From Egibacter rhizosphaerae (GTDB lineage: Bacteria; Actinomycetota; Nitriliruptoria; Euzebyales; Egibacteraceae): 64,000 bases of DNA. Under the pieces are notes generated by a model. That model worked only from the letters and a program-made list of their open reading frames with translations. It was not told the origin of the DNA and made no database searches. The stretch is from assembly GCF_004322855.1 (NCBI RefSeq), contig NZ_CP036402.1, positions 2,666,001-2,730,000 of the forward strand, in the 5' to 3' direction. A program made the translations under genes and the position numbers. Positions 50,303-63,150 of this stretch are shown piece after piece. Position 1 is the stretch's first letter; the number at the start of each line of letters is the position of its first letter.

Positions 50303-51385
50303 ATGCGCTACCGCCATATCGCACCGGGCCTCGAAGTGAGCGAGGTCGGGTTCGGCAACTGGACGGTGACGACCGGGTGGTGGGGCGACTACTCCCGCGA
50401 GGAGGCGGTGCGGTTGCACCGCGAGGCGTTCGATCACGGGATCACGTTCTTCGACACCGCGGACGCGTACGCGGAGGGTTACGGCGAGGAGGTCCTCGGG
50501 GAGGCCCTCGCGGGCGTGCGTGACGACGTCGTGATCGGGACGAAGTTCGGCTACGACATCTCCGACGAGGCGACCGTCGCGCGACGCGGGCAGCAGGAGC
50601 GCAGCAAGGACTTCGGCCTCGGCAACGTGAAGGAGGCGCTCGAGGGCAGCCTGCGACGCCTCGGCGTCGACTGCATCGACCTCTGGCAGCTGCACAACCC
50701 GCGGATGGCGCACCTCGACGACGACGACCTGTTCGAGTATCTTGAGGAGGCCAGGGAGGCCGGCAAGATCCGCCACTACGGCGTCGCACTCGGCCCCAAG
50801 ATCGGGTGGCTCGACGAGGGCGTGCACGCCATGCGCACCCGCGAGGTCGCCGCGGTGCAGATGATCTACAACCTGCTCGAGCAGGACCCCGGCCGCGATC
50901 TGCTCGCGGTCGCGCGCGAGACCGACACGATGATGGCGGTTCGCGTGCCCCACTCCTCGGGGATGCTCGAGGGCAACCTGACCGAGGACACCGTGTTCCC
51001 GCAGGGGGACCACCGCCGCCACCGTCCCCGCAGCTGGCTCGTGGAGGGGGTGCGCAAGATCGCCACCCTGGATTTCCTCACCGAGGAGCGCACGCTCGGG
51101 CAGGCCGCGCTGCGCTGGATCCTCGCCGACCCGAACGTCGCCACGACGTTGCCCAACATCTACTCGATCGACCAGATCGAGGAGTTCGCGGGTGCCGCGG
51201 ACGTGCCCGACCTCGCCCAGTGGGAGCTCGCCCGCATCCAGGCGTTGTACGCCGAGAACTTCGGGGTCGAGCCCGGCGGGGAGGCGGTGGCCGCCAACGA
51301 GCACGGCGCTCCGGGGGCCGTCGAGGGGGATCGGACGAACCGGGAGCACGCTGACGCGCCGTTGTCGCAGGCCCTGGAGGGATGA
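50303..51385 (+). CDS. Aldo/keto reductase
   Basis: The 360-residue protein has the AKR pattern [38 protein letters not shown] (catalytic Asp and Tyr), [11 protein letters not shown] (Lys) and WQLHNPRM (His), the full catalytic tetrad. It reduces an aldehyde or ketone using NADPH; the substrate is not predictable. AAGGAG precedes ATG 50303. Its stop overlaps the hemL ATG, so the gene is coupled to heme synthesis, perhaps by clearing a reactive carbonyl, which is speculation. Confidence 0.9.
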
Positions 51386-52671
51386 CGATGACCGCCGACC
51401 GGTCCTCCGCGCTGTACGAGCGTGCTCTGGAGGTCATCCCTGGAGGCGTCAACTCACCCGTGCGCGCCTTCGGGTCGGTGGGCGGCACGCCCCGCTTCGT
51501 GGCCGAGGGCGAGGGGGCGCGTATCACCGACGTCGACGGGCATCGCTACCTCGACTACGTGTGCAGCTGGGGCCCGCTGATCCTCGGCCACGCGCAGCCC
51601 GACATCGTTGCCGCGGCGCGTGCGGCGCTCGAGCGGGGCTCGAGCTTCGGGACCCCGACCCGGGGGGAGGTCGAGCTCGCCGAGGCCATCGTCGAGCGGG
51701 TGCCCTCGGTCGAGCAGGTGCGGCTGACCTCCTCGGGCACCGAGGCCGGCATGAGCGCCGTGCGGCTCGCCCGCGGCGCGACGGGCCGGCACAAGGTCGT
51801 GAAGTTCGCGGGCCACTACCACGGGCACTCCGACGCCCTGCTCGCCGCGGCGGGCAGCGGGGTCGCCACCCTCGGCATCCCCGGCACCCCCGGCGTCACC
51901 GAGGGCGCGACGGCGGACACCATCGTGGTGCCATGGAACGACCGTGAGGCCGTCGAGGAGGCGTTCGCCGAGCACGGCGACGACATCGCGGTGCTCGCCT
52001 GCGAGCCGGTGGCCGCGAACATGGGGGTGGTCCCGCCGGACGAGGGGTACCTCGCGTTCCTGCGCGGAATCACGGCCCGCCACGGCGCGCTGCTGCTGTT
52101 CGACGAGGTGATGACCGGGTTCCGAGTCGCGCGCGGTGGCGCGCAGGAGCACTACGGCGTCACGCCCGACCTCACCACGTTCGGCAAGGTCGTCGGTGGC
52201 GGGTTCCCGCTGGCCGCGTTCGGCGGGTCCGCGGACGTGATGCGCCACCTCGCGCCGACCGGGCCCGTCTATCAGGCGGGCACGCTCTCGGGGAACCCGG
52301 TCGCCGTGGCCGCCGGCCTCACCCAGTTGCGCCTGCTCGACGACGCCGCGTACAAGACCCTCGACGGGCTCGCCGACCGGCTGATCGATGGGCTGGCGAA
52401 CGCGTTCCAGCAGGCCGGGATCGGGGTGCACGTGCAGCGGTGCGCGTCCCTGTTCAACGTGTTCTTCGCCGACGCGCCGGTGCGCGACTTCGCGGGGGCG
52501 CAGACCGCCGACACCGAACGCTTCGCGGCGTTCTTTCGCGGGATGCTCGCCCGCGGGTTCCACCTGCCGCCGTCGCAGTACGAGGCGATCTTCGTGAGCC
52601 TGGCCCACACCACCGAGGACATCGACGCAACCGTTGCCGCCGCGACCGAGACCGCGGCCGAGCTGTCGTGA
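51382..52671 (+). CDS. hemL: Glutamate-1-semialdehyde 2,1-aminomutase
   Basis: The 429-residue PLP enzyme converts glutamate-1-semialdehyde into 5-aminolevulinate, following HemA. Typical parts: [13 protein letters not shown] near residue 19, [20 protein letters not shown] near 117, [11 protein letters not shown] near 140, [17 protein letters not shown] near 235 and the PLP lysine Lys269 in [20 protein letters not shown] 51382 overlaps the aldo/keto reductase stop and its TGA overlaps the next gene. Length fits. Confidence 0.95.
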
Positions 52672-53670: not shown

Positions 53671-54204
53671 GTGGACTGGATCGCAGAGTTCTTCGGGACC
53701 CTGCCGGAACTCTTCAGTTCGCTGTGGGAGTTCGCCGACGGGACGCGTGGACTGCTCGTGACGTTCGGCAGCGCCGGAGCGGTCGTGCTGTTGTGCGTGC
53801 TCGCCGCCGTCTTCCGTGACCGGCAGGGTTGGCAGTCGGCCGTCTTCGGGGCCATGGCGGCACTCGTCGGCGCCTTCTGGTTGTTCGGCGTGATCCCGTC
53901 GGCATGGACGAACTTCGCGAACGACTACGAGGCCCTGTTGTCCGGGCTCTACATCCCCGGGGAGCTCGTCACCCCGCAGGTCACGATCCTCGGCCTCGTC
54001 ACGATCCCCGAACTCGAGGTGGCCACCGACCTCTACCTGGTCATCCGCGACAGCGTGGCCATGGTCATCACCTTCATCGGTGTTGGCGTGCTCGTGTTCG
54101 TCGCGTTGTGGGTCCAGAAGCGGTACCCCCGCACGCTGGCGCCCGACGAGCGGCCACGGCCCGAGACCGGTGGCCGCACCGACGTCGGCGCGGCCCGCCC
54201 ATGA
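53671..54204 (+). CDS. Membrane protein just upstream of the cytochrome b genes, unknown
   Basis: The 177-residue protein has three TM helices (GLLVTFGSAGAVVLLCVLAA, SAVFGAMAALVGAFWLFGV and SVAMVITFIGVGVLVFVALW) with a loop between the second and third facing one side (NFANDYEALLSGLYIPGELV). I do not recognise a family. GTG 53671 follows GAGGGCCAG. It is 45 bases from the cytochrome b6 gene and on the same strand, so it is a candidate accessory subunit or assembly factor of that complex. The final 25 residues are polar. Confidence 0.65.
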   Translation: MDWIAEFFGTLPELFSSLWEFADGTRGLLVTFGSAGAVVLLCVLAAVFRDRQGWQSAVFGAMAALVGAFWLFGVIPSAWTNFANDYEALLSGLYIPGELVTPQVTILGLVTIPELEVATDLYLVIRDSVAMVITFIGVGVLVFVALWVQKRYPRTLAPDERPRPETGGRTDVGAARP

Positions 54205-54249
54205 GCACCGCAGCCCGTCCCGCCACCAGCCGGAGTAGGTAAGCAGCCC

Positions 54250-55017
54250 ATGGCGCAGAACACCAAGCCCAGCGAGGTGAAGGCCCGCCTCAAGGACAGC
54301 GTGGTCTGGAAGTCGATCTTCCGGCCGGGGTCCGTCTATCGCGCGGGGTATCGCGACACGGCCCGCGATCGTGCCCTCGCCGCGATGAACAACTTCGTGT
54401 ACCACATTCACCCGGTGAAGGTGAAGCGACACGGGTTGAAGCTCACCTACACGTACTGCCTCGGCGGCACGAGCTTCTTCCTGTTCATCGTGCTGACCAT
54501 CACCGGCATCTTCCTGATGTTCTTCTACCGCCCCGCGGCGGGACCGGGCCAGGAGCTCGCGTACCTCGACATCGAGAACCTGCGCACGTCGGTGCAGTTC
54601 GGCGAGCTCGTCCGGGCTATGCACCGCTGGGCGGCGCACCTGATGACCTTCGCGGTCTTCCTGCACATGGCGCGGGTCTTCTACCACGGGGCCTACAAGC
54701 CACCGCGGGAGTTCAACTGGGTGGTGGGCGTGATCCTGCTCCTGCTCACGTTGCTGCTCGCGTTCACCGGCTACCTCCTGCCTTGGGACCAGCTCGCCTA
54801 CTGGGCGGTCGCGGTCGGGACGGACATGGCCGGGTTCACCCCCGTGTTCGGCGACCAGGTGCAGTTCCTGCTGCTCGGTGGGGTCGAGATCGGACCCGAG
54901 ACGCTGATCCGCTGGTACGTACTGCACGTGCTGCTGTTGCCGTTCGTGTTGACGATGTTCCTCGCGATCCACTTCTGGCGGATCCGCAAGGACGGCGGCA
55001 TCTCCGGACCTCTGTGA
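54250..55017 (+). CDS. qcrB: Cytochrome b6-type subunit (N-terminal half of cytochrome b)
   Basis: The 255-residue four-helix protein is the heme-bearing half of a quinol:cytochrome c oxidoreductase. Heme-ligand histidines are His125 and His139 (13 residues between) and His226 and His241 (14 between), the b6 spacing. TYCLGGTSFF holds Cys70 at the place of the cysteine that anchors heme ci/cn in cytochrome b6 and in Bacillus QcrB. Together these make it b6f-like, unlike the single-chain cytochrome b of most actinobacteria. RWAAHLMTFAVFLHM and FTGYLLPWDQLAYW are further hallmarks. ATG 54250 lies 45 bases after the previous gene. Confidence 0.93.
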   Translation: MAQNTKPSEVKARLKDSVVWKSIFRPGSVYRAGYRDTARDRALAAMNNFVYHIHPVKVKRHGLKLTYTYCLGGTSFFLFIVLTITGIFLMFFYRPAAGPGQELAYLDIENLRTSVQFGELVRAMHRWAAHLMTFAVFLHMARVFYHGAYKPPREFNWVVGVILLLLTLLLAFTGYLLPWDQLAYWAVAVGTDMAGFTPVFGDQVQFLLLGGVEIGPETLIRWYVLHVLLLPFVLTMFLAIHFWRIRKDGGISGPL

Positions 55018-55072
55018 GTCGCGCTATGAATGTCAGGGACGGGAGCCGCACGCGCGAGAGAGGGAGCGCCTG

Positions 55073-55807
55073 ATGGCCGACGAGCAGGGCGCGGCCGGCC
55101 AGACCAACGGCGGCGTCGATGAGGAGCTCTACGAGCGCCTGATCGCCGAGGGCAAGAGCGAGCGGATCGCCCGCGCGAAGGCGCGCGCCGCGGCCGTGCG
55201 CCGCGGCGGGGACACCGGCGACGGCGCCGACGGCGGGGTGGCGACCGCGTCGCGCACCCTCTCGGCGTCCGAGCGCCGCGAGCGGGTGGAGACCGCGCTC
55301 GCGGGGCGCCAGCAGGGCCTCGAGGCGACCGGTGCCGCGACGCCGGGTGAGGGCTCCCAGCGGATCCGCAGCGTGCAGGACACGGTGTTCACGTGGCCGC
55401 ACCTGATCAGCCAGGAGGCCGTGGCGGCGCTCACGGTGCTCGCGGCGCTGACGCTGTTCAGCGCGTTCGCGCCGGCCCCGCTGCAGGAGCTCGCGAACCC
55501 GGACGTGACCCCGAACCCCTCCAAGGCGCCCTGGTACTTCATGGGCCTGCAGGAGATGCTGATCTATCTGCACCCGATGATCGCCGGGATCACGATCCCC
55601 GGGATCGTGGCCGTCATCGGGCTGATCCTGCTGCCCTTTATCGACAAGAATCCGTCGGTGAGGCCCGACAACCGCAAGACGGCCTACGCGCTGTTCACGA
55701 CGGTTCTCGTGGGGGCCGCGGTCCTGACCATGATCGGGTCGTTCTTCCGGGGGCCGGGGCAGGCGTGGTTCTGGCCGTGGGTCGACGGAATCTGGTTCGT
55801 CCTGTAG
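55073..55807 (+). CDS. Subunit IV-type C-terminal half of cytochrome b
   Basis: The 244-residue protein has about 100 N-terminal soluble residues and then three TM helices with NPDVTPNPSKAPWYFMGLQE, corresponding to the quinol-site loop (the PEWY-like APWY). This is the second half of a split cytochrome b as in b6f and Firmicutes complexes. The N-terminal extension has a helical Lys/Arg/Glu-rich part (EELYERLIAEGKSERIARAK) that ordinary subunit IV lacks and could recruit a partner. ATG 55073 has GAGAGGGAGCGCCTG before it. Same operon as the cytochrome b6 and Rieske genes. Confidence 0.9.
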   Translation: MADEQGAAGQTNGGVDEELYERLIAEGKSERIARAKARAAAVRRGGDTGDGADGGVATASRTLSASERRERVETALAGRQQGLEATGAATPGEGSQRIRSVQDTVFTWPHLISQEAVAALTVLAALTLFSAFAPAPLQELANPDVTPNPSKAPWYFMGLQEMLIYLHPMIAGITIPGIVAVIGLILLPFIDKNPSVRPDNRKTAYALFTTVLVGAAVLTMIGSFFRGPGQAWFWPWVDGIWFVL

Positions 55808-55816
55808 GAGGACCCT

Positions 55817-56620
55817 ATGTTGAGCACGATCGCGGTGATCCTCGCGGCAGGGCTCCTGATGGCGCTGCTGGGGGCAGCCGCGGGTCTCTGGTGGATGCGC
55901 CGGGCCATGCGCCGGCCGGTCCGCGTGTGCGCCGCACCCGCGGACGGTTGCGACGGGTGCCCGTCGTCGGGCGGCAGCGGCCCGCGCTTCGCCCCGCAGC
56001 TCGCGTTCGCCGCCGCGTCCGGGGGTGGTGGCAGCGGCGGTGCCGGGGGCGAAGCGCCCGAGTCGCGGGGCCCCGACCGCCGCACGTTCCTGCGCGGCGC
56101 GCTCGGCCTGTCCAGCCTCGGGGCCGTCGGCAGCTTCGGGGCCGCGAGCATCGCCTTCCTGTGGCCGGACACGCGCGGCGGCTTCGGGGCCGTCCTCGAG
56201 GTCGGACACGTCGACGACGTGCTGAACGACATCGACGAGGCCGACGGCGCCTTCGAGTTCACGCCCGGCCGAGCACGGCTGGTGCGCTACGACCCGGAGG
56301 ACGACACCGAGGACGCCTACCTGGAGCTGACCCAGGAGGGCGAGTCCCCGGTCCTGGCGCTCTACCAGGTCTGCCCGCACCTCGGCTGCGCGGTGCCCTG
56401 GTGCGACTCGTCGCGGTGGTGGGAGTGCCCCTGCCACGCGTCGGCCTACAACCGCTGGGGCGAGTTTCAGGACGGTCCGGCGCCCCGCGGGATGGACCGC
56501 TTCCGAGTGGAGATCAGCGACGACGGCATCCTCTCGGTCGACACGACCGAGATCATCGACGGCCCGTCCCGTGGCCAGCAGTCGTTGATCCAGCCACGCG
56601 AGGGGGACGCGTGCGTCTAG
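55817..56620 (+). CDS. qcrA: Rieske iron-sulfur protein
   Basis: The 267-residue protein has an N-terminal TM helix, a Gly-rich and Cys-rich stretch, a second membrane/Tat-like segment (RRTFLRGALGLSSLGAVGSF) and the Rieske domain. Cluster motifs CPHLGC (Cys186, His188, Cys191) and CPCHAS (Cys204, Cys206, His207) provide the two His and two Cys ligands plus the structural disulfide. It carries electrons from quinol to the cytochrome c. TAGGAGGACCC before ATG 55817 is a strong ribosome site. The double anchor is unusual and may relate to Tat export. Confidence 0.92.
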   Translation: MLSTIAVILAAGLLMALLGAAAGLWWMRRAMRRPVRVCAAPADGCDGCPSSGGSGPRFAPQLAFAAASGGGGSGGAGGEAPESRGPDRRTFLRGALGLSSLGAVGSFGAASIAFLWPDTRGGFGAVLEVGHVDDVLNDIDEADGAFEFTPGRARLVRYDPEDDTEDAYLELTQEGESPVLALYQVCPHLGCAVPWCDSSRWWECPCHASAYNRWGEFQDGPAPRGMDRFRVEISDDGILSVDTTEIIDGPSRGQQSLIQPREGDACV

Positions 56621-56693
56621 CCCTCGCCGGCCCGGTCGCCGCGAGCGAGCGCGGGCTCCCGGACCCGGTCGCCCCGACCAAAAGGCACGCCAC

Positions 56694-57905
56694 GTGAACG
56701 ACGCCGGACTGCTCATCGCGATCCTCGTCATCGCCGTCCTGGTGGCGACGGGGTTGCTCTGGTACGGCGCCGGACGCTCGCGGCGGCGCTCCCAGCGTGC
56801 GCAGGAGCTCCCGCCCGCCATGCGCCCGGCCTACTCCGACGAGCAGCTCGAGAAGGGCGTGCTGGAGCGCTGGATGGGGTGGGGCTTCGTGCTGTCCGCG
56901 TTCTTCGCGATCGGCTTGCCGGTGTACTGGGCGTTCGAGACGCAGCGCATCCAGACCGAGGAGCAGGAGCGCTACGTCCACTCGGTGGCGGAGGGGGAGC
57001 AGCTCTACGTCGACAACTGCGCCGAATGCCACGGCTCCGAGCTCGGGGGTGGTGCGGCCCCGTCCCCGTACGACGCCGAGGAGACCTGGCCGGCGCCCGC
57101 GCTGAACAACATCGTCCAGCGTTACGAGGAGAACGAGAACGTCGACGACGTGCGTGATCACATCACCCTCACGCTCGAGCGGGGCATCCAGGGCACCCCG
57201 ATGCCGGTGTACGGCGTCGCCTACGAGGGGCCGTTCACCGATCAGGAGATCCAGCACGTCGCCGACTACATCCTCGCCCGCCAGGAGGCCGGGGCGGCCG
57301 CCGAGGAACCCGAGGATCCCGACGAGAACGGCGAGGCCGACGAGGACGAGGCCGACGAGGACGAGGCCGACGAACCCGAGGATCCCGACGAGAACGGCGA
57401 GAACGACGAGGCGGCGAGCGCGGCGGACGGCCCGCTGCAGGTCAGCGACCAGACGGGCGAGGAGCTCTACGCCGCGAACTGCGCCCAGTGCCACGGGGAC
57501 GAGGGCCAGGGCCGGGTCGGCCCGTCCCTGGTCGGGGTGACCGAGCGCCACGGCGAGGAGACGCTGATGGGGATCCTGCGGCAGGGGATCTATCAGCCGT
57601 GGACGCCGATGCCGGCGTTCCAGCAGGGCTGGTACTACCAGGACGCTCGGTACGACGACGATGCGCTGGAGCGGATCGTAGACTACCTGCACGACCTCCA
57701 GCCCGACGAGATCCCCGAGGACTTCGAGCGCTGGCAGACCCCCGGCGTCGAGCACGGACCCGATTTCGGTCCGCGTCCTCCCGGCGACGAGGACGACGAG
57801 GACGACGAGGACGACGAAGACGAAGACGCGGACGAGGACGACGGGGACGACGAGGACGACGGGGACGGCGTCGCGCGGAACGCGCGCTCGGACGGAGGCC
57901 GCTAG
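56694..57905 (+). CDS. Di-heme cytochrome c with acidic linkers
   Basis: The 403-residue protein starts with one TM helix, a cytoplasmic Arg-rich stretch and a second helix, then two c-type heme domains: Cys109-Ala-Glu-Cys112-His113 and Cys263-Ala-Gln-Cys266-His267. Between them and at the C-terminus are very acidic Asp/Glu runs with a repeated EDPDENGE unit, probably flexible tethers. It would receive electrons from the Rieske protein in place of cytochrome f. GTG 56694 starts directly on the first helix. No separate small cytochrome c is encoded nearby. Confidence 0.88.
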   Translation: MNDAGLLIAILVIAVLVATGLLWYGAGRSRRRSQRAQELPPAMRPAYSDEQLEKGVLERWMGWGFVLSAFFAIGLPVYWAFETQRIQTEEQERYVHSVAEGEQLYVDNCAECHGSELGGGAAPSPYDAEETWPAPALNNIVQRYEENENVDDVRDHITLTLERGIQGTPMPVYGVAYEGPFTDQEIQHVADYILARQEAGAAAEEPEDPDENGEADEDEADEDEADEPEDPDENGENDEAASAADGPLQVSDQTGEELYAANCAQCHGDEGQGRVGPSLVGVTERHGEETLMGILRQGIYQPWTPMPAFQQGWYYQDARYDDDALERIVDYLHDLQPDEIPEDFERWQTPGVEHGPDFGPRPPGDEDDEDDEDDEDEDADEDDGDDEDDGDGVARNARSDGGR

Positions 57906-58742
57906 ATGCTCGACGCCCTCTCGCCGCTGAGCCAGATGCCGTTCGCCGAGCACCTCGGGGTGCTGCTGGCGAAGGCGGAGTTAGTGCCGCCGGACGACTG
58001 GCGCGCCCAGGCCGCCCTGCCGGTGGGGATCCTGTTCCTCCTGGGTGGCGTCTTCATGTTGCTGCGCTCGAACCTGGGCACGCGTCGCGCCTACCTGTTG
58101 CAGGCCTCCTGCTTCTTCGGGTTCATGGTCTTCATGGGCGCGTTCTGGGCGTTCGGCGTGCCCGGCTCCGCGCAGTACGCGGGACCCACGTCGCTGCCCG
58201 GTCAGCCGCCCGGTTTCATGGAGCCGGACTGGGTGGCCTTCGCGCCGGACTCGCAGGTCGCGGAGATGCCCGAGTACGAGGTGGTCCAGGACTTCCCCGA
58301 GGGCTTCCAGCCGGTGCCCGCCGACTTCGAGGGCCAGTGGGACGCCTCCGCCGACGAGGGCGTCGACGAGATCATCAACTTCTTCGCCACCGAGGAGGCG
58401 GGTGAACTGACCGAGGCCACCTGGGCCGACGATCCGGAGTTCACCACGGCGGTGGCGATGGCGGAGAACGACCGCCCGATCGTGGCCGCGCAGGTGCGTG
58501 AGATCGACGAGGACACCGGTGAGGCCGATCCCGAGGGCGACTCGTACTTCGCGTTCGCGTTCTACGACCCCGGCAGTCCCGGACTGCCGGCGCAAATGAT
58601 CATCCTGCTGGGCCTCATCGGCTTCGTCCTCCACGTCCTGCTGCTCGGGTGGGACGAGCGGGAGGAGCGCCGCCGGCGCGAACGGGACCTGGCTGACGAG
58701 GAGGCGGAGGACGCCGACGAGCGGGTGCCCACCCCGGCGTGA
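57906..58742 (+). CDS. Membrane protein in the cytochrome complex operon, unknown
   Basis: The 278-residue protein has two N-terminal TM helices (VGILFLLGGVFMLLR, LLQASCFFGFMVFMGAFWAFG), a loop of about 130 residues that is acidic and should face outside (FEGQWDASADEGVDEIINFF and others), and a final TM helix (MIILLGLIGFVLHVLLLGW) with a charged C-terminus. No family recognised. It begins at the base after the cytochrome c stop and its stop overlaps an in-frame GTG of the TlpA frame, so it is clearly within the operon. Likely an extra subunit or assembly factor of the b6f-like complex. Confidence 0.65.
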   Translation: MLDALSPLSQMPFAEHLGVLLAKAELVPPDDWRAQAALPVGILFLLGGVFMLLRSNLGTRRAYLLQASCFFGFMVFMGAFWAFGVPGSAQYAGPTSLPGQPPGFMEPDWVAFAPDSQVAEMPEYEVVQDFPEGFQPVPADFEGQWDASADEGVDEIINFFATEEAGELTEATWADDPEFTTAVAMAENDRPIVAAQVREIDEDTGEADPEGDSYFAFAFYDPGSPGLPAQMIILLGLIGFVLHVLLLGWDEREERRRRERDLADEEAEDADERVPTPA

Positions 58743-58828
58743 GCCGGGAGGCACCTCCCGCAGCTGAACCAGCACAGAAGCCCGTCATCGGGCGGTCACC
58801 GCCCGGCGGCGCTCCTAGACTGGCGGCG

Positions 58829-59440
58829 ATGCGCCCGATCGCAACGATGCTCCTGCTGGGGTCCCTGCTCCTGCTCGGTGCCTGCACGAGCGGTGGCGAC
58901 GACACCGGGCAGGGCTTCGTCGGCGGCTCCGGCAGCGTGAGCTTCGAGCCGGACGAGCGCGAGCCCGCTCCCGACGTGTCCGCGGAGACGCTCGAGGGCG
59001 AGGAGCTCGCGCTCGACGACCACGAGGGGATCGTCGTGCTGAACTTCTGGGCGTCGTGGTGCGGCCCGTGCGCGCGCGAGGCCCCGGACCTCGTGGCGAC
59101 CCACGAGGCCTACGCCGACCGGGGGGTCGACCTGCTCGGGGTGAACGTGCGCGACTCGCGGGCGAACGCCCGGTCGTTCGAGCGCGACTTCGACAAGCCG
59201 TACCCCTCCTGGTTCGACGACGCGTCGACGATCGCTGCCGACTTCGGCGACATCGGCCCGGAGGCGCTGCCCACGACGATCATCATCGACGAGGATCGGC
59301 GCGTGGCGAGCCGCTTCTTCGGGCGGGTGACCGCGGATCAGCTCGCCGACCGTCTCGACGAGTTGCTCGACGAGGCCGCGGCGCGAACCCCTGCGTCTGG
59401 TGAGCGGGCGCCCGCCGCCGCCGGTTCGGGGCAGCCGTGA
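58829..59440 (+). CDS. TlpA-type thioredoxin lipoprotein (cytochrome c maturation)
   Basis: The 203-residue lipoprotein has a signal peptide ending in the lipobox LLGAC (Cys at about residue 20, so the thioredoxin domain is outside). [16 protein letters not shown] with the Cys pair, GVNVRDSRANARSF and ALPTTIIIDEDRRV follow. It most likely keeps apocytochrome c CxxCH thiols reduced, taking electrons from the CcdA encoded next. ATG 58829 gives the cleanest signal peptide; GTG 58739 is a longer alternative overlapping the previous gene. Its stop overlaps ccdA. Confidence 0.88.
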   Translation: MRPIATMLLLGSLLLLGACTSGGDDTGQGFVGGSGSVSFEPDEREPAPDVSAETLEGEELALDDHEGIVVLNFWASWCGPCAREAPDLVATHEAYADRGVDLLGVNVRDSRANARSFERDFDKPYPSWFDDASTIAADFGDIGPEALPTTIIIDEDRRVASRFFGRVTADQLADRLDELLDEAAARTPASGERAPAAAGSGQP

Positions 59441-60231
59441 GCGCACCCGTGGTCGCCGCGGCCGTCCAGTGCACGGGACCGATCTGTGAAGCGGTCGTCA
59501 ACGCGAACGTCCTGCTGGCCGCGCCGATCGCGCTCGCGGCGGGCATCGTGTCCTTCGCCTCGCCGTGCGTCCTCCCGCTGGTCCCCGGCTACCTCTCGTA
59601 CATGACCGGGTTGTCCGGCGCGGAGCTCGCGCACAGCGCCCGCGGGCGCGCGCGGGTGGTGATCGGCGGGCTCCTGTTCACGCTCGGCTTCGCGATCCCC
59701 TTCACGCTCCTCGGCCTGGTCGGTGGCGCGATCTCGACCCAGCTGCTGCATCCGGCCTGGCAGGCGGTGCTCGGGGTGCTCGTCGTGGCGCTGGGGCTGG
59801 CGATGACGGGCCTGTTGCCGTTGGACCTGCTGAACCGGGAGAAGCGGCTCAACGCCCGCGCGATCGACGGGGGAGCGCTGGGAGCGATGCCGCTCGGGTT
59901 CGTGTTCGGGGTCGGCTGGACGCCCTGCATCGGGCCTGCGCTGTCGGCGATCCTGGCGCTCACGGCGGTCGGCAGCGGCGGGAGCATGGCTCGTGGTGGG
60001 GTCCTCGCGTTCGTCTACGCGCTCGGGCTCGGGGTGCCGTTCATCCTCGCCGGGCTGCTGTTCCACCGTGCGGGCAGGGCGCTGGAGGTCCTGCAGCGCA
60101 ACGCGCGGCGCGTCCAGATCGGTGGGGGTCTGGTCCTCGTCGCGGTCGGCGTCGCGATCGCGAGCGGTCTCTGGGCGAGCCTCATCAACGCCATGCGCCC
60201 GTTCATCACCAGCTTCGAGACGATCCTCTGA
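59437..60231 (+). CDS. ccdA: Cytochrome c biogenesis protein CcdA
   Basis: The 264-residue protein has about six to seven TM helices and two Cys-containing motifs, FASPCVLPLVPGYLSYMTG near residue 45 and GVGWTPCIGPALSAI near 160, the redox pair of CcdA/DsbD-type proteins. It passes reducing power from cytoplasmic thioredoxin to the outer thioredoxin-like protein. GTG 59437 overlaps the previous stop, and its TGA overlaps the ResB ATG by one base. The four genes from 58829 to 63150 form a System II maturation unit. Confidence 0.93.
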   Translation: MSAPVVAAAVQCTGPICEAVVNANVLLAAPIALAAGIVSFASPCVLPLVPGYLSYMTGLSGAELAHSARGRARVVIGGLLFTLGFAIPFTLLGLVGGAISTQLLHPAWQAVLGVLVVALGLAMTGLLPLDLLNREKRLNARAIDGGALGAMPLGFVFGVGWTPCIGPALSAILALTAVGSGGSMARGGVLAFVYALGLGVPFILAGLLFHRAGRALEVLQRNARRVQIGGGLVLVAVGVAIASGLWASLINAMRPFITSFETIL

Positions 60232-62000
60232 TGACCGCACCGTCGCGATCGGGGCAGGCGGGCGAGGCACCCGCGCCGGGCCAGGAGGACCAGGCAGGTC
60301 AACAGGCCCGCGCACGCGGCGAGCGTGCCGCCGGCGGCCGGAAGGGCGCGCCGGGCGGGGTGTTGGGTCCCGGCGAGACCGTCGTGTGGCTCTGGCGGCG
60401 GCTGCGGCGCATGTCGACCGCTTTGTGGCTCCTGTTCGCACTCGCCGCCGCGAGCCTGATCGCGACGTTCGTGCCGCAGGAGCCGGTGATCCCGACGACG
60501 GTCGCGGACTGGCGGGAGGGCGTCGAGGGCCCGGGGCCGGAAGTGGCGGCCGCGTTCGACGCGCTGGGGCTCTTCGACGTCTACGGGTCGTGGTGGTTCA
60601 TCGCGGTCGTCGTGCTGCTGTTCGTGAGCCTCACCGGATGCCTCATCCCGCGCTGGAAGGCGTTCGCCGTGCAGGTGCGTCGCCCCCCGGTGGCCGGGCG
60701 CAACCTCGATCGGCTGTCGCACCGCCGCGAGATCGCCACGGATCGTTCCCCCGAGGAGGCGCTCACCGCGGCCGAGCGCGTGCTGCGGCGGCACCGGTTC
60801 CGGCGACGCCGTGTGGCCCCCGACGAGGCATCCGTCGCCGGCTCGGGCACCGGCTCCGCCCGGAGCCGCATCGCGGCGGAACGGGGCCATTGGCGCGAGG
60901 GCGGCAGCCTCCTGTTCCACACCTCCTTCTACGTGCTGCTCGCCGGCGTCATCGGCGGTCACGCCCTGGGGTTCTTCGGCCAGGTCAACGTGGTCGAGGG
61001 TGATGCGTTCACCGACACCCGGATCGCCTACGACCGGGCGGAACCCGGCGCGCTCTTCGGTGCCGACTCGCACCGCGGGTTCACGGTCCGCCTGGACGAG
61101 TTCGACGTCCGGTTCGCGCCGAACCAGGTGCCGAGCGAGTTCGTCTCGAGCGTTACCGTGCTCGAGGAGGGCGAGGAGGTCCACGAGGACGAGGTCCGGG
61201 TCAACGACCGCCTCGAGTACGCGGGGATGAACCTCTACCAGATGCGCTGGGGCTATGCGCCCGAACTCCGGGTGCGCAGCGGCGACGAGCCGCTCTACGA
61301 GGACCATCTGATGCTGCGCGAAGAGGACACCGGTGCGTGGACCGGGGTCGCGAAGGTGGCGGTCGGGGACCCGCAGATCGCCCTCGAGGTGCTGCTGATC
61401 CCCGACTTCGGCGTCACCGACGACGGCGAAGTGGTCAACCGCGGGCCCGAGGCCGAGAACCCCCGGCTGTTCGGCAACCTGTGGGTCGGCGACCTCGGCT
61501 TCGAGCGTGCGCTGCCAGCGGCGGAGTTCGACCGCGAAGGGGGCGAGCGCCTCGCGACGGTGGAGCTCGAGCCGGGCAGCACGCAGCAGTTGCTCGGCGA
61601 CGACCTCGTGCTCGACTTCGACGGGGTGGCGCACTGGTCCGGCTTCCAGGTCGCGCACCAACCCGGGCGGGGGGTCCTGCTGTTCGCCGCGGCGTTGCTG
61701 CTGGCCGGCCTGGTGCCCTCGCTGTACGCCTACCGGCGCCGGCTGTGGGTCGACGTCCACCCGAGCGGACAGGGCAGCGCGGTGCGGGTCGCGGGGGTCG
61801 CGCAGCAGCGGGGCGAGCGATTCGCCGACGAGTTCGAACGGGTCGGCCGGGAGCTCGAGGACGCTCTGGCGGGGGAACCGCGGGCCTCGTCGGATGCGAG
61901 GATGGGCCCGGCCGGCGAGGATTCGAGCGAGCCCCGCCCATGGGGGGACGAGTCGATCGGTCCGGACGAATCGAGCGAGGAAGCCGATGCCCGACGCTGA
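60231..62000 (+). CDS. resB: System II cytochrome c biogenesis protein ResB (Ccs1)
   Basis: The 589-residue protein has an Ala/Gly/Arg-rich start, TM helices (TALWLLFALAAASLIATFVP, WWFIAVVVLLFVSLTGCLIP, SLLFHTSFYVLLAGVIG), a large outer domain and a final TM before an Arg-rich tail. The outer domain has the ResB features VNDRLEYAGMNLYQMRWGYA and AHWSGFQVAHQPG. With CcsA it moves heme and joins it to CxxCH sites. ATG 60231 overlaps the CcdA stop; its 3' end overlaps CcsA by 14 bases. Confidence 0.9.
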   Translation: MTAPSRSGQAGEAPAPGQEDQAGQQARARGERAAGGRKGAPGGVLGPGETVVWLWRRLRRMSTALWLLFALAAASLIATFVPQEPVIPTTVADWREGVEGPGPEVAAAFDALGLFDVYGSWWFIAVVVLLFVSLTGCLIPRWKAFAVQVRRPPVAGRNLDRLSHRREIATDRSPEEALTAAERVLRRHRFRRRRVAPDEASVAGSGTGSARSRIAAERGHWREGGSLLFHTSFYVLLAGVIGGHALGFFGQVNVVEGDAFTDTRIAYDRAEPGALFGADSHRGFTVRLDEFDVRFAPNQVPSEFVSSVTVLEEGEEVHEDEVRVNDRLEYAGMNLYQMRWGYAPELRVRSGDEPLYEDHLMLREEDTGAWTGVAKVAVGDPQIALEVLLIPDFGVTDDGEVVNRGPEAENPRLFGNLWVGDLGFERALPAAEFDREGGERLATVELEPGSTQQLLGDDLVLDFDGVAHWSGFQVAHQPGRGVLLFAAALLLAGLVPSLYAYRRRLWVDVHPSGQGSAVRVAGVAQQRGERFADEFERVGRELEDALAGEPRASSDARMGPAGEDSSEPRPWGDESIGPDESSEEADARR

Positions 62001-63150
62001 GATGTTCAACGAGGCCTGGAACACCGCGTCCAACAACCTGTTCTACGGGGCGCTGATCGCCTACCTCGTGGGGATGGTCGGCTACTTCTTCCGGATGGCG
62101 TACACGCACGTCGGGCCCGACGGGACCCAGGCCACCAGCCCCATCGGCCGGCGCGTGGGGCTGGCCGCGACCGTCGTCACCGTGGGAGGGGCCGCCGCGC
62201 ACCTCGTGAGCATCGTGCTCCGGGGACTTGCCGCGGGGCGCGCGCCGTGGGCGAACATGTACGAGTACTCGTCCGGCCTCGCGTTCCTCGTCGTGGTCAT
62301 CGGGTTGATCGTCCTGCAGCGCCGCTACGGCTACACGCACGTGGTGGGGTTCGTGATCGCCCTCGCCGTGCTGATCATGGCCGGCGGCCTGATGCTGTAC
62401 GCGGCCCCCGACCCCCTGCAGCCCTCACTGCAGAGTTGGTGGATCCGCGTGCACGTGAGTGCGGCGATGGTCGCCTCGTCGATCTTCACGGTCGCGTTCG
62501 TCGCGACCGCCCTGTACCTGGTGAAGGACACCGCCGAACGCCGGCTGGCCGAGCGCAGCGGCCAGGCGTTCGGGGGCTCGACCGTCGGCGCCGCCAACGT
62601 GGACGGTCCGTCGGGCCGACCGGAGGACGAGGTCGCGATCGACGCCGACGCGCCGATGGTCGCGCCTGCCACGGCGCAGCGGGAGGTGCTGGGCCTGTGG
62701 CCGTTCCTGGTCGTCCCGGCCGTGATCGTGGCGGGCTACGTGTTGGCGGTCTGGCAGGCGCCGGTGGCTGCGGTGATCTCGGGCGGCGTGGCCGCGCTGC
62801 TGGGCGGGTCGCTGCGCTACGCGGTGCCCTACCTGCCCGCCGCGGCCCAGCTCGACAACGTCGCGTACCGGACGGTGGCGTTCGCGTTCCCGATCTGGAC
62901 GTTCGCGGTGATCGCGGGCGCGATCTGGGCCGAGGAGGCGTGGGGCCGCTACTGGGGGTGGGATCCCAAGGAGACCGCCTCGTTCGTGACCTGGGTGTTC
63001 TACGCCGGCTACCTGCACGCCCGAGCGACGCGCGGCTGGCGCGGGCGCGGTGCCGCGTGGATCGGCGTCGTCTCGTTCATCGCCCTGGTGGTGACGTTCT
63101 ACGCCGTGAACCTCTTCGTGGTCGGCCTGCACTCCTACGCGGGCGTGTAG
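61987..63150 (+). CDS. ccsA: System II cytochrome c synthetase subunit CcsA (ResC)
   Basis: The 387-residue protein has about eight TM helices and the WWD heme-handling motif WGRYWGWDPKETASFVTWVF starting at residue 319, plus WIGVVSFIALVVTFYAVNLF after it. Conserved His residues in the flanking helices would bind heme. It transfers heme to apocytochrome c with ResB. ATG 61987 is supported by GCGAGGAAG upstream; the next ATG in frame, 62002, is possible. Last gene of the cytochrome cluster, before a convergent MarR gene. Confidence 0.93.
   Translation: MPDAEMFNEAWNTASNNLFYGALIAYLVGMVGYFFRMAYTHVGPDGTQATSPIGRRVGLAATVVTVGGAAAHLVSIVLRGLAAGRAPWANMYEYSSGLAFLVVVIGLIVLQRRYGYTHVVGFVIALAVLIMAGGLMLYAAPDPLQPSLQSWWIRVHVSAAMVASSIFTVAFVATALYLVKDTAERRLAERSGQAFGGSTVGAANVDGPSGRPEDEVAIDADAPMVAPATAQREVLGLWPFLVVPAVIVAGYVLAVWQAPVAAVISGGVAALLGGSLRYAVPYLPAAAQLDNVAYRTVAFAFPIWTFAVIAGAIWAEEAWGRYWGWDPKETASFVTWVFYAGYLHARATRGWRGRGAAWIGVVSFIALVVTFYAVNLFVVGLHSYAGV

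Follow-up and report, generated by a model that had tools for sequence, protein, structure and literature searches.

A split cytochrome b operon in Egibacter rhizosphaerae

The window analysed here, a 64,000-nucleotide stretch of the Egibacter rhizosphaerae genome (contig NZ_CP036402.1, positions 2,666,001 to 2,730,000 of the forward strand; the genome, 4.64 Mb, is a single contig), carries six + strand genes at positions 53671-58742 that probably encode a respiratory quinol:cytochrome c oxidoreductase. The two halves of a split cytochrome b, a Rieske iron-sulfur protein and a membrane di-heme cytochrome c are flanked by genes for two predicted membrane proteins, called orfA and orfB, and the gaps between consecutive genes are 45, 55, 9, 73 and 0 bases. 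The features of the operon are:

53671..54204, + strand: orfA, first gene of the operon; 177 amino acids (aa), GTG start, three predicted transmembrane helices
54250..55017, + strand: cytochrome b6-type half; 255 aa; His125, His139, His226, His241; Cys70 in YCLGG; Arg246
54457..54459, + strand: codon of Cys70, read from the sequence
55073..55807, + strand: subunit IV half; 244 aa; Qo motif A152-P-W-Y; Glu115
55817..56620, + strand: Rieske iron-sulfur subunit; 267 aa; N-terminal hydrophobic helix; RRTFL Tat-like motif at residue 88
within 55817..56620, + strand: Rieske cluster motif, Cys186/His188 and Cys204/His207
56694..57905, + strand: membrane di-heme cytochrome c; 403 aa; two N-terminal hydrophobic helices; acidic linker and tail
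57906..58742, + strand: orfB; 278 aa; three transmembrane helices predicted, the second and third separated by a domain

Pfam matches across the operon comprised PF00033 on the b6 half (158 bits), PF00032, PF00355 on the Rieske protein (over cut-off) and PF00034/PF13442 on the cytochrome c. A first-pass annotation of this DNA, made from the sequence alone, had described cytochrome b as divided into a b6-type half and a subunit IV half, and the division is seen in the two separate frames that match PF00033 and PF00032. Conservation was counted on the best 80 of 578 confirmed relatives, so that the counts given below lean towards near kin. Of the available loci, alignments A1, A2 and A3 hold 47 of 77, 48 of 64 and 31 of 80, respectively, each with the window added. 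The nearest relatives of the b6 half listed from the named collections were metagenome-assembled genomes labelled Nitriliruptorales, Euzebyaceae, Acidimicrobiales and similar, at 66-84% identity. The order subunit IV, Rieske protein, cytochrome c, orfB was kept in all 61 loci that have 4.5 kb of downstream sequence, and orfA lay 5' of the b6 gene in all 77 loci that have 1.1 kb of upstream sequence.

Heme ligands and a candidate heme ci site

His125, His139, His226 and His241, together with Cys70, occupy the residues that the first-pass annotation had given for them, and all five are invariant in 81/81 aligned sequences (window included). The histidines of the two pairs are separated by 13 and 14 residues, as had been claimed, but this spacing is not diagnostic of b6: it was found in 80 of the 81 rows of the comparison set (Sinorhizobium being the sole exception), including mycobacterial QcrB, the source genome's own QcrB, Deinococcus and one haloarchaeon. 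The Y-C-L-G-G block aligns without gaps with solved cytochrome b6 chains. The top PDB matches of the b6 half were cytochrome b6 chains (156-161 bits), bc1 chains reaching at most 117 bits and mycobacterial QcrB 90 bits; the organism names attached to PDB chains are presumed ones, except for 8hcr and 7q21, for which they come from the entry titles.

A 1998 paper by Yu and Le Brun reportedly states in its title that the B. subtilis cytochrome b subunit binds heme covalently. In cytochrome b6f, the single thioether bond of heme ci is made to the cysteine that matches Cys70. PMC9162462 describes heme ci as bound to cytochrome b6 by one such bond and places Arg207 of b6 at the heme ci site; the window residue that lines up with Arg207 is Arg246, invariant in 32/32 sequences. 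From the sequence alignment of the b6 half, we infer that heme ci would be attached at Cys70.

The b6 half also scores 295 bits with the NCBIfam model ExtP (a cytochrome of a selenite/tellurite reduction operon; cut-off 290), while for subunit IV, the other half needed for an ExtP/ExtQ assignment, the score was 54 bits against a cut-off of 150. What we take to be the B. subtilis QcrB sequence exceeds the ExtP cut-off too. The model is therefore not specific, and automatic annotation may misname such genes as ExtP.

The b6 half forms a branch of its own

A tree of 79 b6 domains was built with the Cys70 column removed; two of the 81 rows, L085 (a full-length cytochrome b) and L145 (from a Streptomyces plasmid), were omitted, and the single Firmicutes row is what we take to be B. 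subtilis QcrB. Sequences of the window type form one branch of 28 rows (support 97/95). Its sister (99/85; support of the join 100/99) consists of 13 actinobacterial paralogues and Aureibacter, a member of Bacteroidota (rows L104, L123-L134 and L142, respectively). In the sister rows, residue 70 is Arg (11), Tyr (1) or Gly (2), and both halves of cytochrome b lie in one frame in L104, L133, L134 and L142. The deep order of the tree is unsure because of long branches and of program warnings on the joins of L144, L003, L141 and L098, the last of which falls where L098 meets the window branch and its sister. The tree requires a minimum of three switches between cysteine and another residue at this position, so the cysteine has been lost or gained more than once.

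The first-pass annotation had read the operon as encoding a green-type complex, i.e., one specifically related to cyanobacterial/plastid b6f and used without photosynthesis. Cys70, the split cytochrome b and the b6 chains at the top of the PDB matches speak for such kinship, but grouping the window type and the three b6f chains in one clade was rejected by the approximately unbiased (AU) test (p 0.0037), the nearest relatives in the tree lack the cysteine, the Qo motif is KAPWYF, the genome has no cytochrome f match, and the cysteine is also present in the presumed B. subtilis QcrB and in further split types from actinobacteria. A single clade of all cysteine-bearing rows was likewise rejected (AU p 2.7e-5). 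A special relation to b6f is thus very unlikely, and this part of the annotation fails. That the b6 half is a canonical actinobacterial QcrB, merely split, would agree with the phylum and with the shared histidine spacing, yet a clade with actinobacterial QcrB was rejected still more firmly (AU p 0.00011), the actinobacterial QcrB model gives 113 bits against a cut-off of 500, and the genome holds a separate canonical QcrB; we find this reading hardly credible. The phylogenetic check that accompanied the first-pass annotation therefore comes out in its favour in one respect, the b6 half lying outside canonical actinobacterial QcrB.

A further split actinobacterial type was seen in the comparison set (L095-L097, L099, L103, L105-L110 and L112-L114). 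Thr takes the place of the cysteine in this type, the motif is PEWY or PDWY/PDWF, and the 14 rows form one well supported branch (98/96).

An acid-free Qo motif in subunit IV

Subunit IV reads K-A-P-W-Y-F in 76/76 rows with letters at these positions and differs from PEWY in having Ala at the first place and Pro, not Glu/Asp, at the second. The sister paralogues and Aureibacter read K-A-P-W-Y, and the other split actinobacterial types with a readable motif have PEWY or PDWY/PDWF. The Gram-positive Qo motif is PDWY, and the acid missing here (Glu/Asp) is often assigned a role in proton release. Val or Pro variants at the second place are said to appear in the standard account of the motif by Kao and Hunte (2014). 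The Qo motif is described as four residues long, located in the C-terminal half and variable between lineages (PMC9162462), and PDWY is stated for Gram-positives (PMC6349771). APWY did not occur in the 10 open-licence papers listed by a literature search.

About 105 mostly hydrophilic residues precede the first conserved block of subunit IV. Position 115, counted by anchoring on the W/F-P block in agreement with a reading by eye, is Glu in 26/26 cysteine-bearing loci of the window type and His in 12/12 sister paralogues with Arg or Tyr at residue 70 (12 of the 13 rows L104 and L123-L134 have His in place of Glu). It is Asp in 14/14 split types with Thr at residue 70 and in one Deinococcus row, which has Val there. 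Judged from these alignments, residue 70 and position 115 of subunit IV seem to vary together between types, and Glu115 may lie near heme ci.

Rieske protein and cytochrome c

The six Cys/His residues of the Rieske motif are kept in 73/74 rows, the remaining row being gapped there. Two extra invariant cysteines were also seen in the Rieske protein, Cys196 (73/74, one gapped) and, near the C-terminus, Cys266 (72/74, two gapped), and these possibly form a second disulfide. The cytochrome c contains CAECH and CAQCH, i.e., CXXCH at residues 109 and 263; among 69 cytochrome c rows, 63 have two CXXCH motifs, five have one and one has none. Cytochrome f (PF01333) had no match in the source genome, while the control, Synechococcus elongatus, matched. 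The earlier statement that a di-heme cytochrome c accompanies the split cytochrome b, with no cytochrome f, is upheld by the membrane protein with two CXXCH motifs encoded in the operon.

Respiratory context in the source genome

A non-photosynthetic context had been proposed, and the genome indeed contains no match to the photosynthetic reaction-centre families PF00124 and PF00223. Two heme-copper oxidases were identified, each with a cytochrome c domain in subunit II. The idea that the split complex is used instead of the usual one is not supported, since the genome has both gene sets: a canonical qcrC-qcrA-qcrB set lies at C1:351.9-355.2 kb (L003 4883-8171). Its qcrB reads in two frames in the assembly, a first piece of 327 aa and a remainder in another frame, and the gene may therefore be broken or misassembled. 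The first piece gives 223 bits against mycobacterial QcrB, and its residue aligned with the cysteine is Leu. Close to the canonical set there are also a gene for an iron-sulfur protein and a caa3-type oxidase.

Two membrane protein families linked to the b6 half

Because the profiles used for locus order derive from the 80 loci themselves, whole-genome searches are the better check on the association of orfA and orfB with the b6 half. For this, 396 genomes were sampled from the phylum (they may include species behind the profile-source loci), and the window-type b6 class was defined post hoc by a score gap (whole hits of at least 426 bits; next class at most 309). Window-type b6 was found in 119/396 genomes, four of these (G013, G064, G170, G242) with partial hits only. 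The type is not rare, and split b6-type complexes are common in the phylum. A single PF00033 hit was found in 41 of the 119 genomes, so that window-type b6 is the only candidate found there; although many of these genomes are incomplete, this fits a role as the main respiratory complex III.

OrfA was detected in 113 of the 119 genomes with window-type b6 versus 4 of the 277 others, and orfB in 112 versus 4. Where both genes of a pair were on the same contig, orfA lay 82-705 bases upstream of b6 in 109/109 cases, and orfB followed on the same strand, at a distance of 2.2-3.8 kb, in 94/94 cases; 4 (orfA) and 18 (orfB) co-occurring genomes had no listed same-contig pair.

Neither protein could be placed in a known family. 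DUF7139 matched 1/48 orfA members, under cut-off, as was the window orfA's own hit, and was rejected as the orfA family; seven further Pfam families each matched 1-3 of the 48 (E 0.0012 to 0.0099), none of them consistently. For orfB, 0/49 members matched Pfam at E 0.01. Nor did the orfA or orfB profile match any PDB sequence at E 1. AlphaFold2 models had mean predicted local distance difference test (pLDDT) scores of 81.5 (orfA) and 84.3 (orfB) and had no PDB fold match with Foldseek E <=0.001, and a second fold comparison gave middling Z only (best 6.8 for orfB, 6.0 for orfA). Among the rows for orfA were 8hcr_S and 7q21_E (Z 5.1 and 5.0; root-mean-square deviation 5.2 and 6.2), chains of the mycobacterial/corynebacterial III-IV supercomplex; this likeness between model and chains falls within helical-bundle noise and may serve as a lead only. 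No Cys or His occurs among the columns conserved at 90% or more in either alignment, which makes it unlikely that orfA and orfB carry electrons. The best reading is that they act as accessory subunits in the membrane or as factors dedicated to assembly.

Proposed function and its alternatives

We consider it likely that the operon encodes a respiratory quinol:cytochrome c oxidoreductase with a Q cycle, with heme ci on Cys70 and with orfA and orfB as extra subunits or assembly factors. In the electron path that we infer, quinol (presumably menaquinol, by analogy with the phylum) would be oxidised at a Qo site lying between the Rieske protein and the pair of b6 and subunit IV, a site that would work without the usual Glu/Asp of PEWY/PDWY. 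One electron would be taken up by the Rieske cluster, handed to the membrane di-heme cytochrome c and then to caa3-type oxidases, in which subunit II has a cytochrome c domain of its own. The other would cross the membrane via the two b hemes and reach the Qi side; there the heme ci held by Cys70, as the third heme, would mediate quinone reduction. OrfA and orfB would belong to the complex as two extra membrane subunits or would serve as its dedicated assembly factors.

Several observations weigh against this account. CCB2/CCB4, which attach heme ci in oxygenic phototrophs, had no match in the source genome, although B. subtilis, whose cytochrome b subunit reportedly binds heme covalently, was likewise without a match in that search, and the cysteine-free sister paralogues show that a complex of this branch can do without the cysteine. 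Both Gly-70 rows of the sister branch keep Glu at position 115, and the other cysteine-bearing split types have Glu in 10/12 and Phe in 2/12, so that Glu115 does not depend on the cysteine alone. With its acid-free motif, the Qo site could have an altered bifurcation, and the electron partner is left open by the second bc complex. Finally, orfA was not detected in 6/119 and orfB in 7/119 genomes with window-type b6, and operon position is no proof of subunit status.

The CCB2/CCB4 result, like the Arg, Tyr or Gly of the nearest paralogues, would suit a purely structural Cys70 in a split complex without heme ci. This is improbable given the conservation of the cysteine in all 81 sequences, its YCLGG surroundings, which are the same as in b6f chains, the invariant Arg246 and the co-variation with position 115. 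The status of orfA and orfB is less settled. That they are unrelated neighbours, or only assembly/maturation factors and not subunits, is a serious if lesser possibility: they have neither a family nor a confident fold match, and the operon here continues into cytochrome c maturation genes. Their linkage to b6 nevertheless holds where the maturation genes are on the opposite strand (L015-L018) or were undetected in the stretch, and their co-occurrence with window-type b6 is near complete. Linkage and co-occurrence fail to separate a subunit from a dedicated assembly factor, and both roles are kept for orfA and orfB in the proposed quinol:cytochrome c oxidoreductase.

Comparison with known systems

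Complexes of b6-type cytochrome b and Rieske protein with heme ci exist in phototrophs and Firmicutes, and textbooks present the mycobacterial single-chain bcc type as the complex III of actinobacteria. With cytochrome b6f of cyanobacteria and chloroplasts, the window type shares the split cytochrome b, the cysteine in the same block, the Arg207 equivalent and the b6 C-terminal GISGPL. It differs in forming a separate branch, in having KAPWYF, not PEWY, and a di-heme cytochrome c in the operon with no cytochrome f match in the genome, in the addition of orfA and orfB and in a genome without reaction-centre matches. B. subtilis QcrABC is likewise non-photosynthetic, with a split cytochrome b and (in the presumed sequence) the same cysteine, but subunit IV and cytochrome c, which are fused in B. 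subtilis, are separate genes in the window. The window b6 half reaches 208 bits on the Firmicutes model PRK03735 against a cut-off of 325, and its partner lacks the Gram-positive PDWY. Actinobacterial QcrCAB of the bcc-aa3 supercomplex is found in the same phylum and has a di-heme cytochrome c (QcrC) and a Rieske protein (QcrA) as partners; it has, however, a single-chain cytochrome b with Leu instead of the cysteine. The KAPWYF sister paralogues, on the nearest branch, agree with the window type in the Qo motif and differ from it at residue 70 (Arg, Tyr or Gly).

Apparently new here are the branch itself, the acid-free Qo motif, its presence in sister paralogues without the cysteine, and the two unnamed associated membrane protein families; b6-type heme-ci complexes are known. 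No description of the operon in Acidimicrobiia or Nitriliruptoria was recognised in the open-licence literature, judged by titles and abstract starts. We see even chances that the operon stands for a class of respiratory complex III in its own right that is common outside model actinomycetes, with six subunits, heme ci, an acid-free Qo site and two subunits of new families. Such a complex would combine a heme-ci cysteine and an acid-free Qo site in a respiratory setting, together with two unstudied membrane proteins, and the cysteine-free KAPWY paralogues allow a within-branch comparison on the debated role of heme ci.

Neighbouring genes and other observations

The end of orfB overlaps a ResA-like gene by 4 bases, followed by genes for CcdA and ResB and, afterwards, by the CcsA frame; these cytochrome c maturation genes are joined by 1-4 base overlaps:

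58739..59440, + strand: ResA-like thiol-disulfide oxidoreductase (cytochrome c maturation, by family)
59437..60231, + strand: CcdA-like protein (DsbD_TM)
60231..62000, + strand: ResB (PF05140, 342 bits)
61507..63150, + strand: frame holding CcsA/ResC (PF01578)

The true start of CcsA/ResC is probably inside the last frame, after ResB.

Two loci labelled as from other sources, L055 (Phycisphaeraceae) and L081 (Bifidobacterium breve), carry this actinobacterial operon type, and their contigs are probably misbinned or mislabelled. Upstream of the operon, at window positions 51382-52671, lies hemL (heme precursor synthesis), which was also found within the fetched stretch in 34/80 loci.

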